Origin: Pyrobaculum sp. 3827-6
GTDB taxonomy: Archaea; Thermoproteota; Thermoprotei; Thermoproteales; Thermoproteaceae
Direction: 5' to 3'
Length of the DNA stretch: 64,000 nt
Assembly: GCF_025641885.1 (NCBI RefSeq)
Contig: NZ_JAOTQN010000004.1
Coordinates: 124,001-188,000 of the forward strand
The translations under genes were made by a program, and so were the position numbers. Each line of letters begins with the position of its first letter. The stretch's first letter is position 1. Of the stretch, positions 1 to 17,549 are shown one piece after another. The notes beneath the pieces are model-generated. The model was not told the origin of the DNA. It was given only the letters and a program-made list of their open reading frames with translations, and ran no database searches.

Positions 1-675
1 CTGCATACGGTAAACTGCCCACCGCTCTATCCAGGTTGAGGGGCCGAGCGCGGCGCATACAGCCCCCAGCCTTATCAAGGACTCCAGCGCTCCCTCCGCT
101 ACCCGAGGATACGTAGCGGCCGAGAGGAGTGGGTTTTAGGCAGGTCGTCGGGCGAGGACGTCGCGCCTCCAGCCACCTGCCCCACGTGTGGGGAGTTCTG
201 GCGTGGAGAGGCACACCACCGACACATCCTGCCTATCTCCAGGCCACACGTAGAAACCTTCACCACGGCAGAGCCGAACCCTCCCTCTATATCCCACCTA
301 CACACAACACTGAGAGCCGGGCCTCTCCCTCTGCCAAGTCGCCGTGTCACCCACATCCCGACGACATCCACAATATAAACGCTCTAAGGCACCTTAATCT
401 CACTCCCAGAGACGGATCTGGTAGAAGCCTTGCAACTCATCCACAAATCACCAATAGCTCAGCTCTGCGCCTGCACTCGCAGAGGAGGTGAATGGACCCC
501 CTCCTCAGCTGGTATACGACACATTCGTGGTTAGTGGGGGGGGGTGCCAAGATCGCTACCTTGAGGTAGCCTAACTCAGCCAAGGGGAAGAATATTCCTT
601 TCATAATAATGGAAACAACTTCCGTCAAAGCGGAGACACGTCTGCTTACTAGTTCTATCTAACGGAGCAGGTTAT
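1..675. other. No convincing gene; possible edge fragment on minus strand
   Basis: No complete gene is supported here. On the minus strand one frame is open from about position 135 to the window edge and reads like protein (it contains ALESLIRLGAVCAALGP), so a gene may begin here and continue to the left, but its start and family cannot be settled. The overlapping open frames at 99-371 (minus) and 129-491 (plus) have no recognisable motif and look like chance frames in GC-rich DNA. Confidence 0.3.
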
Positions 676-2334
676 CTACTCGTGGGGGTTTGCGCCGAGT
701 GCAATTTCTACCGCTTCTTCGGGATCCTTGGCCTCCACCGCCCCCTCGTCTATGAAGAACTTAAAGGCGCGCCAGACGTCTTCTGCGTCTGTGCTGGGCC
801 TCATTACTATTACGAGTTTGCCGGCTTTAATGCCGTATTTCACCTGGTACTTGGTGCCCCAGCCCCTTTCTCTGTACCTAGACTCCGGGATGATTACAGC
901 TCTCGACATACCCGAAATTATCCTATTTCTCGCGGCCAGCATCTGGTCGAAGCCTCGCCTAGCGTCGTCACTAAAGGCGTACTCAGCCACCGCAGTTGAG
1001 TCGTCTCTTTTGAGAAAATACGAAATCTCGCGGTACAGCACTATATGCGTTCGGCGCGGCTCGGTGGACTTCAGCACCCTCTTCCACAGCGCTGGCCACA
1101 CGCCTATGACCCAGCCGCCGGCTGAGCGCGCGCCCTTTACCGCCGCCCTGTCGACGCCCCTGGCTAAACCCGTCACCACCGGCACGCCCCTCTTAGCTAA
1201 GAGGCGGCCCACCTCCGCCGCCGCCTTGAGCCCGCTTTCAGTGGGATCTCTGGTCCCCACCACAGCCACAGGCCACTCGACGAAGTTGAGAGGCCTCCCC
1301 ATACGAAAAATTAACAATGGTGGGTCCACCACGCCGCGGCCGTATTCCATGAGGAGCTTTGGGTACTCGCTCCACCCCATGGGAAGCGGCACAGCCCCCA
1401 GCCTAATGGCCAACTCCAGCGAGCCCCTCAGCTCCGCGGCCTTTTGCTGAGCAAGGCTAAATGAAGGAAGCTGTCTAAGTAAGCCTACAAGCTCAGCTCC
1501 GTCCTTCAGTTTAGCGGCTAGACTCCTTATGGGATCCCACTCCCTCCGCCAGTGTATGGCCGCGCTGTATATCTCAGCCAGCTCGTCCAGAGTATAAGGA
1601 TAATTGTCGTCATAATAATCATGAACCTCATATATCTCTTTCACGATACACATACCTACGTCCTTTATTACAGCATCGCGTGAGATGACTGCGGCGTATA
1701 CCCTCCGGGCCCCCGCCTCTCTCAGCTTTTTAGCCAACGCCGCCACAGAGGCGCCCGTAGTCCTAACGTCGTCGATAATAATCGCCACAGGCCTATCCAG
1801 CTGTTTAAGCACCACCAAGTTCTCATCGTGGCGCCTCACAGCACAATCAAAATTTTCTCCACAAGCATTTCTAATTTCAGTAGAAGATATTGGCGACTTC
1901 TTCCCTACAACGTCTTTTTCAAGTTTTATGCGATATCCTCGTTGAGTTAAGCTATTTACGACAACTCTGGCAAGCTCAAGCGCCTGGTTATAACCCTTCT
2001 TTTCGTTTAGATGCTTGGGCATTGGTACAACAACTGCGCTTTTTAACTCGCTCGACCACCTACTCTCTACTACAAACGCCATAGCTACTCCCAGCTTTTT
2101 AGCAACTTGTGCAGATCTCTTAAGTTTCAGAATATCACGGGATGCTTGGTTCTCAAAACCAGCCTCCTTAGGGTAGTAGAAGCAGAGAGCAACAAAATCA
2201 TCAACGTAGGGAAGCCCAGCAGACGACACCTCACACGGCAGATAACGCGCCCCCCTTATCCAATCAGTAGAACGACACAAGATCTGATCCCCCAAGTGGA
2301 GAAAACCCCAGAAACACCTAGCTACCGCTGGCAT
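676..2334 (-). CDS. ComF-type phosphoribosyltransferase fused to DprA/Smf-like domain
   Basis: A 552-residue two-domain protein. Residues about 100-220 match the ComF phosphoribosyltransferase family: a VVPMP strand, the family's GYNQ motif near 114-117, and a PRPP-binding loop IIIDDVRTTGAS at 185-196. Residues about 305-550 match DprA/Smf, a Rossmann-fold protein that loads RecA on single-stranded DNA in bacteria: VAVVGTRDPTESG at 357-369, VTGLARGVDRAA at 387-398 and ARNRIISG at 468-475. In bacteria ComF and DprA are separate proteins, both needed for natural transformation. Here they are one chain, in a presumed archaeon. A linker of roughly 85 residues (220-305) joins them. The N-terminal 60 residues lack the CxxC zinc ribbon of bacterial ComF. 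The role could be handling of incoming DNA or nucleotide-derived signalling; this is inference. No neighbour on the same strand forms an obvious operon with it. Confidence 0.85.
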   Translation of the reverse strand: MPAVARCFWGFLHLGDQILCRSTDWIRGARYLPCEVSSAGLPYVDDFVALCFYYPKEAGFENQASRDILKLKRSAQVAKKLGVAMAFVVESRWSSELKSAVVVPMPKHLNEKKGYNQALELARVVVNSLTQRGYRIKLEKDVVGKKSPISSTEIRNACGENFDCAVRRHDENLVVLKQLDRPVAIIIDDVRTTGASVAALAKKLREAGARRVYAAVISRDAVIKDVGMCIVKEIYEVHDYYDDNYPYTLDELAEIYSAAIHWRREWDPIRSLAAKLKDGAELVGLLRQLPSFSLAQQKAAELRGSLELAIRLGAVPLPMGWSEYPKLLMEYGRGVVDPPLLIFRMGRPLNFVEWPVAVVGTRDPTESGLKAAAEVGRLLAKRGVPVVTGLARGVDRAAVKGARSAGGWVIGVWPALWKRVLKSTEPRRTHIVLYREISYFLKRDDSTAVAEYAFSDDARRGFDQMLAARNRIISGMSRAVIIPESRYRERGWGTKYQVKYGIKAGKLVIVMRPSTDAEDVWRAFKFFIDEGAVEAKDPEEAVEIALGANPHE

Positions 2335-2791
2335 ACACCCACTCCAGCAATCTAAAGCAGATTAAAAGACTCACCACGCCGCTCCACCTGGCGATCAGCC
2401 AAACCACAGACAGCAGTAGTAGGGACATTCATATCTTCTCCACGTATAAAAACTCTAGGAGAGAGAAAACCGAAAATAAGGTACATTCGACTTATAAAGG
2501 GCCAGGTCGCCTACTGAGACCGGGGAGGAATTGATGGAGACGCCGGATTTTGAGCCCAGGTTTACTCCCCATGGCAAAAGCCCTACAAACTGAGGATTAG
2601 ACCAACACTACGATATTTCTACCCCTACAGCACGGCACATAGCCAAAGAGACGAGACATTGAAATACATCCCAGCGGAATGCCTAAAGAGCATAGACAAG
2701 CCACAACAAAAATGCCACCCCTAATCATTTGAGAGCATCCACAACCAGTAAAATCCAAGCAAAACTACGCAAAATACACACAGAGGCAAGG
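2335..2791. other. Intergenic stretch with a promoter-like site and a short open frame
   Basis: About 450 bases without a confident gene. A TATA-like CTTATAAAG lies near 2490 on the plus strand, followed by GGGGAGGAA and an ATG at 2534, which leads the doubtful small frame described separately. Nothing else stands out, and no sign of a mobile element was seen. Confidence 0.4.
2534..2724 (+). pseudogene. Possible small frameshifted gene, unidentified
   Basis: After a TATA-like site near 2490 and a purine-rich GGGGAGGAA, an ATG at 2534 opens a frame of about 19 codons (METPDFEPRFTPHGKSPTN) that stops at 2591-2593. A different frame overlapping the end of the first (PYKLRIRPTLRYFYPY...) runs on to a stop at 2722-2724. 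The two together could be one gene of about 62 codons broken by a small indel. No family is recognised, and both parts could be chance frames. Confidence 0.2.
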
Positions 2792-2917
2792 TGGTGGGCC
2801 CGCCGGGATTTGAACCCTATCCCAAGCCCCCACGCGGGGGCTTGACGGGACCGCCCGGTTATGAGCCATACGCGGGGCGCTGCCCCAGGGCGCTCCACCT
2901 GGCTGAGCTACGGGCCC
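2792..2917 (-). tRNA. tRNA with CAU anticodon and two introns
   Basis: Read on the minus strand, the acceptor stem GGGCCCG (from 2917) pairs with CGGGCCC at 2796-2802, followed by discriminator A and an encoded CCA (2792-2794). The D arm is GCTC...GAGC. The anticodon arm becomes perfect (CCCGG-CTCATAA-CCGGG) only if about 20 nt, with a GGGGC-AGC-GCCCC hairpin, are removed between positions 29 and 30. The T arm (CCGGG-TTCAAAT-CCCGG) forms only if about 29 nt, with a 9-bp hairpin (CAAGCCCCC-GCGT-GGGGGCTTG), are removed within its 5' strand. The mature length is then 74 nt plus CCA. The CAU anticodon fits elongator tRNA-Met or tRNA-Ile2; the initiator is less likely from the acceptor sequence. 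Introns at such non-canonical sites are known in Thermoproteales. Confidence 0.9.
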
Positions 2918-3193
2918 CCTCGCTTCTATAACTGTGCTTGTTTTTTAAGTTTTTCTCTGGGGGTATGCCCAGGTCGGCGCATGTGGGCTCTAGGCGGATC
3001 GACGCCTCTGGTGCGCTTTTGGCGAGGCGCTTCCGCCTTTCTTCTCTGCTCTACCTCTCCATTCCCAAGTCCTTCAACGCGGCAACTGTCTTTTGGTAAT
3101 CCGCCTAGCGCTACCCCTTCTTCTCTTCAGAGGTGCCAGACGCCGCATATAGTCTTCGCCGTAGTTCCTCCGCATACTGGTGTACGTTGCTCC

Positions 3194-4930: not shown

Positions 4931-6235
4931 GTGTTTATTGATAGGGAGGGGGAGCTGGGGGTTTTGGAGGAGCTGTATAGAGGGGGTAGGCCGCAGTTTG
5001 TGGTGGTCTACGGCAGGCGTAGGGTTGGGAAGACTTGGCTGGTTAAGAAGTTTCTGGAGGGGAAGCGGGGCGTGTATATACACGCGCTCCGCCAGCCGAT
5101 GGGGGTGGAGCTGGAGAGGCTCGCCGAGGCCCTCTCCAGGGCATTGGGTACGTACGTGAGGGCTGACTGGGGATCCGTGGCGGAGGCGCTGGCGGGGGCT
5201 GGGAGGTTTGTGCTGGCGGTGGACGAGTTTACCTACTGGGTGGAGGAGGACCCCGGGGTGCTGTCTAGGCTTCAGCAACTGTGGGACGAGGTGTCTTCTA
5301 GAGCCCCCCTGTTTCTAATCCTCCTGTCGTCGACCGTGTCGCTTGTGGAGAAGTCTCTGTCCTACGGCGGGGGGCTCTTCGGGAGGCGGACCGCCCAGCT
5401 GAGGCTGGGCCCGTTCGCCCCGCATGTGGCTCGTCTAATGTTGCCCTTCTGCGCCGAGGAGCTGGCTGTGGCCTACGCGGTGACCAACGGCGTGCCGTAC
5501 TACATGTCGCTTTTCGAGGCAGGGCGAGGGCTCTGGGGAAATTTGGAGCGGCTCTTCTCCAAGTGGGGGCCTCTGTACGAGGAGGCGGAGAACCTGCTCC
5601 GCTTCGAGGTGAGGGAGCCCCACGTCTATCTAAACATCGTGAGGGCCATCGAGGAGGGGGCGACCACGTACTCCGAGATCGCGGACAGGTCCAGGATCCC
5701 CTCCCAGACCCTCGCCAAGTACCTGGCCGTGCTTGAAAGGCTGGAGGTCGTTAGGCGGGAGGTGCCTGTGTTGGGAAAAGCCAGGCCTATCTACGTCGTG
5801 TCGGATCTCTACGTCAAGTTCTGGATCCGCACCGTCTACAGGCACAGGGAGCTCGTGGAGCTGGGAGGCGCCGCCCCCGCGGATGTGGATAAGTACATGC
5901 AGTCGGCTTACGAGGAGGTGGTGCGGAGGGCCCTCCCCCGTCTGCGGGAGAGGGGGCTCGCGGCTGCTGGGGGCAGATGCGGGAGGTACTGGAGCGGAGA
6001 CGTGGAGATCGATCTGGTCTGCGTGGGGGAGGGGGGCTACGCGGCGTTTGAAGTCAAGTGGGCCGACTTAACCCGGGACGAGGCGGAGGAGGTGCTGAGG
6101 GAGCTCAAGGCTAAGAGCGGCGGCAGAGAGGGCCGCTACTACGTCGTGGCGAGGAGGGCCCTGGGGGAGAAGCCCCCGTGGCTCCTAGACGCCGGCGACG
6201 TATTCGAAGCCGCTCCATGCAACGCCTCACGGTAG
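4931..6235 (+). CDS. Archaeal AAA+ ATPase with C-terminal DUF234/nuclease-like domain
   Basis: 434 residues with the architecture of the archaeal Arch_ATPase/DUF234 family. Walker A GRRRVGKT is at 28-35, Walker B FVLAVDE at 93-99, and a winged-helix segment (TTYSEIADRSRIPSQTLAKY) at about 245-264. Near 359-376 an EIDLV...FEVK pattern resembles a PD-(D/E)XK nuclease core. The start is a GTG giving the family's typical opening FIDREGELG. These proteins form large paralogous families in archaea; no precise function is established. It may share a transcript with the small gene 46 nt upstream. Confidence 0.8.
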   Translation: MFIDREGELGVLEELYRGGRPQFVVVYGRRRVGKTWLVKKFLEGKRGVYIHALRQPMGVELERLAEALSRALGTYVRADWGSVAEALAGAGRFVLAVDEFTYWVEEDPGVLSRLQQLWDEVSSRAPLFLILLSSTVSLVEKSLSYGGGLFGRRTAQLRLGPFAPHVARLMLPFCAEELAVAYAVTNGVPYYMSLFEAGRGLWGNLERLFSKWGPLYEEAENLLRFEVREPHVYLNIVRAIEEGATTYSEIADRSRIPSQTLAKYLAVLERLEVVRREVPVLGKARPIYVVSDLYVKFWIRTVYRHRELVELGGAAPADVDKYMQSAYEEVVRRALPRLRERGLAAAGGRCGRYWSGDVEIDLVCVGEGGYAAFEVKWADLTRDEAEEVLRELKAKSGGREGRYYVVARRALGEKPPWLLDAGDVFEAAPCNASR

Positions 6236-6706
6236 GCGCCCCGCCAGCAACCACCTTTCGAGGCCCCTGGCGCCCCTCGCCGCCCTCTCAGCCGCAGATC
6301 TCAGCTTAGCCGCCACCTCTCTGGGATCCCCGCCGCAGGCCTCTGCCAGCTTATACGCAAGCGAGAGGAGGTGGCCAGGGTCGTGCTCCGCCTCGTATGC
6401 CCCCAGCGGAGTCACCAGCCTGAGCCTGCCCCTGTACACATACGCCTCCACCGGGCAGGGATCGGCCAGCATGTCCAGCAGAGCCGCCCCGCGCCTCCCC
6501 AGCACATACACCACCCTGGTCCTCCCGCCCCTCTCCGCCTTAGCCCACCTCAGCACCCCCAGCAACTGCGCCGCCTCAACCACGGCGAAGGCGTAGTCGC
6601 CCCACCGCCTGTAGAGGTGCCAGAAGGCCACCTCCCCGCCCAGCCCCCTAGCCATCTCAGCCGCCTTCAGCAAGTCGCCAGCCTTGACGAAGCCGTGTGT
6701 AGTCAT
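6227..6706 (-). CDS. Hypothetical protein coupled to compact DNA polymerase gene
   Basis: A 159-residue protein from the ATG at 6704-6706, which overlaps the TGA stop of the upstream polymerase gene (ATGA), so translation is probably coupled. An upstream in-frame start would extend further into the polymerase gene and is less likely. The middle (about 35-75: DYAFAVVEAAQLLGVLRW...TRVVYVLGRRGAALLDML) is compatible with a winged-helix fold. No family is recognised. The tight linkage suggests a DNA-binding or accessory partner of the polymerase (inference). Its 3' end overlaps the convergent ATPase gene by 9 nt. Confidence 0.6.
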   Translation of the reverse strand: MTTHGFVKAGDLLKAAEMARGLGGEVAFWHLYRRWGDYAFAVVEAAQLLGVLRWAKAERGGRTRVVYVLGRRGAALLDMLADPCPVEAYVYRGRLRLVTPLGAYEAEHDPGHLLSLAYKLAEACGGDPREVAAKLRSAAERAARGARGLERWLLAGRLP

Positions 6707-8394
6707 GAGGCCAGCCCGAGGGCGTGGAACTTCCACAGCCTCTCCACGTACTCAACGGCGGCTCTCCTCACCTCTTCAAGAGCCGCCGGCCTGGGCTCCC
6801 CGCCCAGCGCCAGCCAGGGGACGTAGACGACGCCGCGGCCCGGCAGGTAGAACACGTCCACCGGGTCGCATGTACACCTCTCGGCGAAGTGCCGCGCCGC
6901 GACGTGGAGGGGAGTCGCCTTCTTCACCTCGGCGAGCCTCCGCCTCCACACCGCCTTGTAGATAAACAACTGCTCGGGCGGGGCCTCCAGCAGAGCCCCG
7001 ACGGCGACGCCCAGCGGATCGCCGCCCTCCACCGCGGCCCGCACCACGTCGCGGTACCTAAGCCTCACCGCCAGGGGGAGGTCGTGCGGCCTCAGAAGCC
7101 CCCCCTTCACCTCCCAGACCCCGGCCCCCATCTTGACGTAGTTCTTCTCAGCGGCGCCGCCTCCCCTCGCCGGCGCCAGGAGGAGGACGTCCCAAACCCT
7201 CTTCAGCTCGAGCCTCAGCCCGCCGAGGGACTCGGCCCAGCGGAGCACGTCGCCCGCGCGCCTCTCCTCAACATATATAGAGTCGGTGTCGCCGTAGATA
7301 GGCGAGAAGAGGCGCCAAGCCTCGTCGAAGAGGCGGGCGGCTTCGGCCCGAACCGCGAGGAGACACGGCTCACATATCATCCCCCACCCCGCCTTGCCCC
7401 ACGCCCCTATGCCGGCGTTCATAAGCCACTTAAGTGCCTCGGACTCCCACCTATCCGCCGCGCCCAGCCTCCTCCTCAGCCACCTGCCGACGACGTCGGC
7501 CACGGGGCCGCCGTCGAAGCAGTATCTGCCCAGCACCCCGGCCTCCAGCCCGGAGGCGCAGGGCCTCGCCGTGGTTGGATCCACTCCGTACTTCACCACC
7601 AGCGATGGGAAGAGGGATTTGAAGTCGAGCTCAGCCACGCGTCTGTAGACCCCCGGCGACCTGGCCCTGGCCATGTCGAAATACGGCATGTCGAAACTCC
7701 GCCGCGAGTCCTCCACCACGTAGCCCCTCCTCTCCGCCTCGAAGTGGAAAACCGCCTCGGCCAGCGCCGCGGCTGAGTTGGTCTCCAAGACCTCCAAGAC
7801 GGCGTCCACCCCGACCCCAGTAACCGAGGAAAAGGCCTCCAGCAACCTCACCGCCTCGGCCGCGAGGAGGTAGAGAGCGTCCAGCACGTCGCCGGGGTCC
7901 CCCCTCCACGCCTTGAGAAGCCACACGTCGCCGAACCTCTCCGCGGCCTCTATCCAGAACCCCCTCCTGTAGACTAGGCGGAGGTCCACCAAGACGCCGC
8001 CGCAACGCGGCCGCCGCCCCCAGTACGCCACGTACCGCGCAGGTGGGCAACCAACCCCCCGCTCCTCCCCCATCCGCCACCTCCAGACGCCGCCCGCCAG
8101 ATGCACCGCGGCGACGCCGCCGCCGAGCTCCGGCCTCCTGCCCCCCTCTAGATAGGCCCGGACAGAGGGGGGTATGTAGGACTGCGCCACTCTGTAGCCC
8201 CTGGCGACCAGCTTCGCCCTGAGGGGCTCCCAGCGCCTCGCCGGCTCGGCGACCCGCCACACGGCGTCGCTAGACTCTGTGTATACAAACCCGCGCCTCA
8301 CCAGAGGCACCAAGTCGACTCTCTCGGCCTTTACAGGCGGTCTGGGGCCAATTACATACACAAAACAAGTATTTTCAATGATGTATATCAGCAC
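6703..8394 (-). CDS. Compact family-B DNA polymerase (PolB2-like), no exonuclease motifs
   Basis: All three polymerase motifs of family B are present. Counting from the GTG at 8394, motif A (LDFKSLFPSL) is at 256-265, motif B (LKWLMNAGIGAWG) at about 321-333 and motif C (YGDTDS) at 367-372. The catalytic aspartates of A and C are intact. The protein has only about 563 residues against roughly 780 or more for replicative archaeal PolB, and I see no DIE-type 3'-5' exonuclease motif in the N-terminal third. This resembles the short PolB2 group, many of whose members have damaged active sites; here the site looks complete. The open frame extends upstream to a TTG at 8439, adding a hydrophobic stretch that I judge untranslated. 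A coupled small gene follows. Confidence 0.8.
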   Translation of the reverse strand: MLIYIIENTCFVYVIGPRPPVKAERVDLVPLVRRGFVYTESSDAVWRVAEPARRWEPLRAKLVARGYRVAQSYIPPSVRAYLEGGRRPELGGGVAAVHLAGGVWRWRMGEERGVGCPPARYVAYWGRRPRCGGVLVDLRLVYRRGFWIEAAERFGDVWLLKAWRGDPGDVLDALYLLAAEAVRLLEAFSSVTGVGVDAVLEVLETNSAAALAEAVFHFEAERRGYVVEDSRRSFDMPYFDMARARSPGVYRRVAELDFKSLFPSLVVKYGVDPTTARPCASGLEAGVLGRYCFDGGPVADVVGRWLRRRLGAADRWESEALKWLMNAGIGAWGKAGWGMICEPCLLAVRAEAARLFDEAWRLFSPIYGDTDSIYVEERRAGDVLRWAESLGGLRLELKRVWDVLLLAPARGGGAAEKNYVKMGAGVWEVKGGLLRPHDLPLAVRLRYRDVVRAAVEGGDPLGVAVGALLEAPPEQLFIYKAVWRRRLAEVKKATPLHVAARHFAERCTCDPVDVFYLPGRGVVYVPWLALGGEPRPAALEEVRRAAVEYVERLWKFHALGLAS

Positions 8395-8542
8395 AGCTAA
8401 CAATAAGTACAGAAGAGAGAGTACATCGAAAGTAAACAACGCGGCGGACCTCTTAATCTACAAACTTCGAAGCGCCCAATCAAGTATCGAAGTGGTAAAG
8501 TTGAGAGGGTTGCTAGACGGCGTCGGGAGCGGCGGCGCGACG

Positions 8543-8652: not shown

Positions 8653-9186
8653 ATGGAGTTTAGGGTCGGGGCTGTGTCGGTGGTGGTGGCCAAGGGCGAC
8701 ATAACGGAGGTGGAGGCCGACGCCATCGTCAACGCGGCTAATTCCTATCTCGAGCACGGCGGGGGCGTGGCGGGGGCCATAGTGAGGAAGGGGGGCCAGG
8801 TGGTTCAGGAGGAGAGCCGGGAGTGGGTCAGGAGGCACGGCCCCGTGCCTGTGGGCGGCGTCGCCGTGACCTCCGCGGGGAGGCTCAGGGCGAGGTACGT
8901 GATCCACGCGGTTGGGCCTCGGTGCGGCGCCGAGCCTATCGAGAAGCTGGGGGAGGCGATCCGGAACGCCCTTGCCAAGGCTGAGGAGCTGGGCCTCTCT
9001 TCTATAGCCTTCCCGGCGATCAGCACGGGGGTCTTCGGATGCCCCTACGAGGCGGCGGCTGAGCAGATGGCGAGGGCGATAAAGGAGGCGGCCCCCGGCC
9101 TAAGGACTGTGCGGCGGGTACTTGTGGTGCTCTACGGCGACGAGGCGTATCAAAAATTCCTAGAGGTTTTTAAAAAGATCTTCTAG
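8653..9186 (+). CDS. Macrodomain (ADP-ribose-binding) protein
   Basis: A stand-alone macrodomain of 177 residues. The N-terminal [17 protein letters not shown] and GGGVAGAI motifs, and the later [13 protein letters not shown] loop, are the ADP-ribose-binding signatures of the family. Stand-alone macrodomains bind or hydrolyse ADP-ribose derivatives, such as O-acetyl-ADP-ribose or ADP-ribosyl groups on proteins. An A/T-rich TTTTTAAGG lies about 25-30 nt upstream. The 3' end overlaps the convergent gene by 4 nt. Confidence 0.92.
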
Positions 9187-17386: not shown

Positions 17387-17549
17387 ATGGCCCACTCCAC
17401 ACGGGTTTAAATGTCCGCCCCTTGGAGGGGGCGTTTTCACAGCCGCCGAGACGGCGCCTCGACACCCCACGCCAGGGGCGCGTATAGACACGCCACCACC
17501 TTATAAACTAACCTCCGCAAATTATTAAAACCACTAAGAATTAGATGCA

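Follow-up and report, generated by a model that had tools for sequence, protein, structure and literature searches.

DprA and ComF are usually read as competence proteins. Studies of C. jejuni and S. pneumoniae report that the bacterial ComFC protein, which combines a zinc finger with a PRPP site, binds single-stranded DNA and interacts with DprA (PMC9005727). Related pairs have been described from conflict systems. The phosphoribosyltransferase (PRT) domain of RqlH is reported to be genotoxic unless the DprA-like protein RqlI is present, and RqlH and RqlI interact (PMC4670107). According to a further report, a pair of DprA and a PRTase shields E. coli from phages (PMC9122126), and a review states that ShosT perturbs purine metabolism and that ShosA counteracts this effect (PMC12593503). 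For archaea, the genome paper of Thermoproteus tenax (2011) predicts that DprA (TTX_0242) and ComF (TTX_0243) form an operon (PMC3189178). Ted pili, which probably move single-stranded DNA, are reported from all five genera of the Thermoproteales (PMC9905601).

The window analysed here is the whole stretch of 64,000 nucleotides from Pyrobaculum sp. 3827-6. On its minus strand a single open reading frame encodes an N-terminal PRPP-type PRT and a C-terminal DprA domain, while the plus strand of 676-2334 contains stops and is not open throughout. The relevant features are as follows.

676..2334, minus strand: fusion of a ComF-like PRT and DprA, ATG start, 552 residues
1666..2334, minus strand: N-terminal PRT half, residues 1-223, ComF-like without the four-Cys zinc finger
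1969..2028, minus strand: ComF-like motif VPMPKHLNEKKGYNQALELA, residues 103-122
1747..1785, minus strand: PRPP-binding loop around DDVRTTG, residues 184-196
1375..1665, minus strand: residues 224-320, counterpart of the N-terminal extension of stand-alone DprA (genomes G077, G009 and G187)
679..1374, minus strand: C-terminal DprA core, residues 321-552, without a C-terminal winged-helix extension
1249..1266, minus strand: DprA motif AVVGTR, residues 357-362
1150..1173, minus strand: DprA motif TGLARGVD, residues 388-395
910..930, minus strand: DprA motif RNRIISG, residues 469-475
2792..2917, minus strand: intron-containing tRNA gene (ARAGORN intron mode), the next gene on the strand of the fusion, which lies downstream of the tRNA 3' end

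Many bacterial DprA proteins carry a winged helix at the C-terminus. Bacterial ComFC and DprA have folds and core motifs in common with the fusion and are known to interact, but they are encoded by separate genes, occur together with ComEC and include the zinc finger of ComFC, whereas the fusion misses the NCBIfam cut-offs. Both domains of the T. tenax pair fall in the clades of the fusion; however, T. tenax has two genes with DprA first, in contrast to one gene in the window with the PRT first and no zinc finger. ShosTA likewise consists of a DprA-like protein and a PRT from adjacent genes. These follow the order DprA-like then PRT, whereas the window has one chain with the PRT first; in our trees ShosA is placed in another clade, and ShosT probably is too. 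In the solved structure of ShosT the PRT is found at residues ~163-420 of 424, and the long N-terminal part is missing from the fusion. RqlHI/PsyrTA also combines a PRT with a DprA-like protein, and there the partner restrains PRT activity. In that system, however, the PRT shares its chain with a RecQ helicase and the DprA-like partner is a protein of its own, whereas no helicase domain was found by Pfam in the window chain.

A first-pass annotation had proposed that a ComF-type PRT and DprA are joined in one 552-residue chain with all visible motifs intact. The minus-strand frame, the matches to PF02481 and comF and the motifs bear this out. The archaeal origin presumed there is supported by a Pyrobaculum sRNA encoded in the window and by the membership of T. 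tenax in the same family. In the domain search only the DprA half behaved as expected: PF02481 matches residues 322-516 with E 2.7e-25 and 89.3 bits (Pfam cut-off 29.6), and neither PF00156 nor any other PRT model of Pfam matches at E<=0.001. Instead, the NCBIfam comF model (TIGR00201) matches residues 68-214 with E 2.4e-7 and 30.9 bits, far below its cut-off of 233.55; the control, YhgH of E. coli K-12, scores 275.7 bits. Several PRPP-synthetase/PRT models of NCBIfam match more weakly around residues 170-250. The competence equivalog of DprA, TIGR00732, reaches 79.9 bits, below the cut-off of 191 (control Smf of E. coli K-12, 295.6 bits). In PADLOC the fusion matches ShosA (7e-26) and ShosT (9.6e-8), and PsyrA and PsyrT match the same two halves.

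The PRT half contains the PRPP loop IIIDDVRTTGAS and the ComF-like motif VPMPKH..GYNQALELA, and the DprA half contains GTR, TGLARGVD and ARNRIISG. Key residues are kept in homologues, since the PRPP loop is present in all seven PRTs of the clade of the fusion and the arginine of GTR in 15/15 rows of the DprA alignment A3. The NQ[AS] motif, present in the window fusion, is found in 7/7 clade PRTs and 4/5 ComF proteins and in none of 19 ShosT-type PRTs. For the four-Cys zinc finger the corresponding counts are 4/7, 5/5 and 0/19; the window protein has lost it, and in total three of the four fusions lack it. Between the window genome (G000) and G065, dN/dS, estimated from few changes, is 0.50 both for the whole chain and for the PRT half, and 0.43 for the DprA core. 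Both halves are thus under mild constraint.

Both folds were recovered by structure prediction, because structural matches to DprA/ShosA and to ComF were obtained from the models. The whole-chain model, built from only three full-length fusion rows, is weak (mean pLDDT 49.3), and its top nine PDB matches in Foldseek are all DprA or ShosA. Within this weak model the PRT half (residues 39-221) is best matched by H. pylori ComF (7p0h; Z 10.7, 154 aligned residues, rmsd 3.4), followed by PurF and ShosT with Z about 9.3. The C-terminal part modelled alone from 16 rows folds well (pTM 0.80). Its best solved matches are DprA from R. palustris (3maj, Z 22.6) and S. pneumoniae (3uqz, Z 19.5), and comparison with E. 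coli ShosA gives Z 17.7. The DprA half also resembles the nucleotide-cleaving LOG and the signal-binding ThsA SLOG folds, with Z 12 to 15.

Trees were calculated from 41 DprA rows and 35 PRT rows; broken, contig-end and some redundant loci, including the intact G334 and G207, were left out. In the DprA tree the fusions form one clade (100/97) with G187, G009, G077, G039, G068 and G053, apart from ShosA and canonical DprA. In the PRT tree a branch with 95/97 support divides ComF from ShosT and the ShosTA-like archaeal PRTs; the fusions and the PRTs of G077, G009, G187 and G174 are found on the side of ComF. Long branches were flagged, monophyly of the seven clade PRTs is supported by only 84/42, and an AU test did not reject holding the clade with ShosT (p 0.32). 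By motifs and tree the PRT half therefore looks ComF-like rather than ShosT-like, with the tree not decisive. Membership in ShosTA, first suggested by the PADLOC matches, was dropped as a label, since canonical DprA from E. coli scores 195 bits on the ShosA profile and the PRT tree and motifs indicate ComF. Within the fusion clade the DprA and PRT trees are nearly congruent, as expected for genes inherited together.

Near-full-length fusions occur in 4/81 genomes of the class, and every fusion found belongs to the order Thermoproteales. Besides the window genome these are G065 (91% identity to the window protein, a complete genome), Thermoproteus sp. CP80 (G074, 45%, clipped by the contig end) and a Caldivirga MAG (G042, 37%). 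Since the fusion recurs in four genomes, it is no assembly accident. In G053 its parts are spread over three overlapping frames; this is probably a formerly fused gene that has since been broken or was mis-sequenced. The presence is directly seen to be sporadic: within Pyrobaculum only the window genome and G065, two of 11, carry the fusion. Separate neighbouring genes for PRT and DprA of the same clade were found in G077, G009 and G187. In G077, which is T. tenax and belongs to the same family as the window organism, DprA precedes the PRT with a 17-nt overlap and the PRT retains its zinc finger. The genes are divergent in G009, and in G187 the PRT precedes DprA, as in the fusion. Because of these separate neighbouring genes, functional coupling of the two domains is supported, in agreement with the first-pass proposal that both halves act on one process or substrate. 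In the literature covered, from which subscription journals were mostly absent, no report of the fused form was found, and the T. tenax pair was the only archaeal DprA+PRT module. Since that pair was already known, the novelty lies in the fused form.

Across the phylum, PF02481 was found at E<=1e-10 in 36/398 sampled genomes. The fusion is the sole DprA of its own genome; second DprA copies occur in G273 (C62) and G358 (C76). The PRT search matched 62/398 genomes at E<=1e-6, mostly by short matches to other PRT enzymes, and only the 11 genomes whose matches reached an E-value of about 1e-13 or lower were counted for the family. PRTs of the clade occur without DprA in G174, G218 and G390, and DprA of the clade without a PRT in G068, G039 and G061. 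Consequently, since one is as frequent as the other, a loss asymmetry that would favour a toxin-antitoxin pair is absent from the fusion clade. A scan of genome contigs with the window protein alone, and one of viral contigs with alignment A1, E. coli Smf and Enterococcus DprA, yielded no relatives; both used few short patterns and the absence is weak. None of 27 matching phage records and none of 180 matching plasmid records covered 80% of the fusion chain.

The survey of neighbours points to an insertion beside a tRNA gene. Default ARAGORN and Rfam missed this tRNA at 2792-2917; ARAGORN in intron mode assigns it to Ala in G000 and G065 and to Met in G063. In G063 the gene directly after the tRNA-Met is rhomboid-like and the next one encodes an aldo-keto reductase, with no fusion there. 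In G065 the fusion lies between the tRNA and the rhomboid gene, and in G000 the rhomboid gene is replaced by a different stretch carrying a PaREP1 gene. The aldo-keto reductase genes and the rhomboid gene of G063 were named by eye and position. Because G063 keeps the same gene order without the fusion, we regard the fusion as inserted downstream of the tRNA. The insertion site in the window has no integrase of its own, no direct repeats flanking the fusion stood out as attachment sites in window 1-3000, and neither Pfam nor PADLOC recognised a complete defence system in the part of the window examined. On its 6.2-kb contig, the Caldivirga fusion lies beside an integrase of archaeal-virus type (PF00589/PF16795). 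A CRISPR array with at least 24 repeats (L037:5260-6927) precedes the T. tenax pair at a distance of ~2.2 kb, and Csa2 and a Cas3-like helicase are encoded beyond the array. In G174 a PRT of the same family (E 1.4e-30) follows DrmA (4e-182) and DrmB (2.6e-65), the DISARM core, in one operon (L090:3892-10000), and may be an extra part of that core. The same operon also encodes a small zinc-ribbon-like protein.

Related DprA+PRT pairs recur among defence genes in the same phylum. Outside the class there are 28 DprA loci, four of them at contig ends. A PRT gene is directly adjacent on the same strand in 20/24 interior loci, that is, 19/23 ShosTA-like loci and G187. In the ShosTA-like archaeal pairs DprA is usually first, and phage Mana has the same DprA-PRT order; the viral alignment A6 contains 13/15 loci, without L141 and L147. 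The PRT is fragmented and DprA whole in four of the 20 pairs (G381, G378, G176 and G384; loci L078, L079, L082 and L091), and DprA is fragmented in G316. Two Rhizobiaceae plasmids (L116:2094-5866 and L117:2121-5907) carry two convergent DprA+PRT modules, with PRT proteins of ~220 and ~414 residues.

We tentatively prefer, with confidence just short of even, the reading that the fusion is a PRPP-using effector checked by its own DprA sensor or antitoxin half, by analogy with RqlHI and ShosTA. In this view an accessory module of two parts would be encoded by one gene. The DprA half would bind single-stranded DNA and restrain the PRT half; infection or DNA damage would change the DNA or the DprA contact and release the PRT half, which would then use PRPP to disrupt nucleotide pools or act at DNA, resulting in growth arrest. 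DNA binding, PRPP use, inhibition between the halves, toxicity and a defence role are what we infer for the fusion. The reading is suggested by the sporadic presence and the insertion downstream of a tRNA, by the Caldivirga integrase, the CRISPR/Cas neighbourhood in T. tenax and the PRT beside the DISARM core, and by the published RqlHI, DprA+PRTase and ShosTA precedents together with the ShosTA-like archaeal loci with an adjacent PRT. Against it stand the placement of the PRT half nearer to ComF than to ShosT in the tree, though the AU test leaves this less than firm, the surroundings without a complete defence system and the missing loss asymmetry. In addition, a covalent antitoxin is not degradable apart from its toxin, and release would therefore have to be conformational. 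More specifically, though this is less likely than not, the fusion may be an abortive-infection protein of hyperthermophilic archaea that restrains itself within a single polypeptide, with a ComF-type PRPP-using toxin and its own DprA-type DNA sensor/antitoxin. It would then add a third type to the DprA+PRT modules ShosTA and RqlHI/PsyrTA and be spread by integrating elements.

It is also possible, if somewhat less likely, that the protein is a DNA-handling adaptor, in which the ComF-like half takes incoming single strands and passes them to the DprA half, which loads RadA, perhaps after import by Ted pili. The reported properties of ComFC (PMC9005727), the H. pylori ComF match and the distribution of NQ[AS] agree with this, as does the report of Ted from the very order that contains all fusions (PMC9905601). 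However, Ted is order-wide by that report whereas the fusion is rare, its contexts are insertion-like and mobile, and most fusions lack the zinc finger on which H. pylori ComFC depends. The own genome also lacks ComEC: PF03772 gave 0 matches there, with 10/14 control genomes positive. Competence-type DNA uptake, raised as a possibility in the first-pass annotation, is not supported in that form, given this result, both missed competence cut-offs, the lost zinc finger and the sporadic insertion; the annotation's hint at conflict systems is the better supported half of that idea. The fusion may still handle DNA imported by another apparatus such as Ted. The effector and adaptor readings share the single-stranded DNA step and differ in the harmfulness of the PRT half. 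An unlikely alternative is a metabolic or signalling enzyme, whose PRT half would make a nucleotide from PRPP and whose DprA-type Rossmann half would bind or cleave that nucleotide. The intact PRPP loop and the LOG and ThsA SLOG matches would fit, but DprA matches score well above these (Z 22.6 vs 12 to 15) and the DprA half retains the DprA motifs. The three frames of G053 and the only moderately low dN/dS might even indicate a chance or decaying fusion without joint function; this is very improbable, as the fusion is retained in at least four genomes at identities down to 37% with intact motifs.

If the DprA half does restrain the PRT half, the protein would be a thermostable single-chain system that opens the link between DNA sensing and PRPP chemistry to direct study. 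Should its role instead be to handle imported DNA, the protein could supply the missing cytoplasmic step of Ted transfer. What stands out is that two proteins read as competence factors share one chain in a genome that lacks ComEC.

Further genes of the window include an archaeal ATPase_2/DUF234 protein at 4931-6235 (plus strand), which matches the PADLOC candidate PDC-S27 (2.6e-35), and a stand-alone macro-domain protein at 8653-9186 (plus strand; 1.9e-40). A 578-residue protein at 6703-8439 (minus strand) has no Pfam or PADLOC match and by eye contains the motifs YGDTDS and FKSLFPS, which resemble those of family-B DNA polymerases. Rfam places the Pyrobaculum sRNA PyrR201 at 17412-17479 (minus strand).
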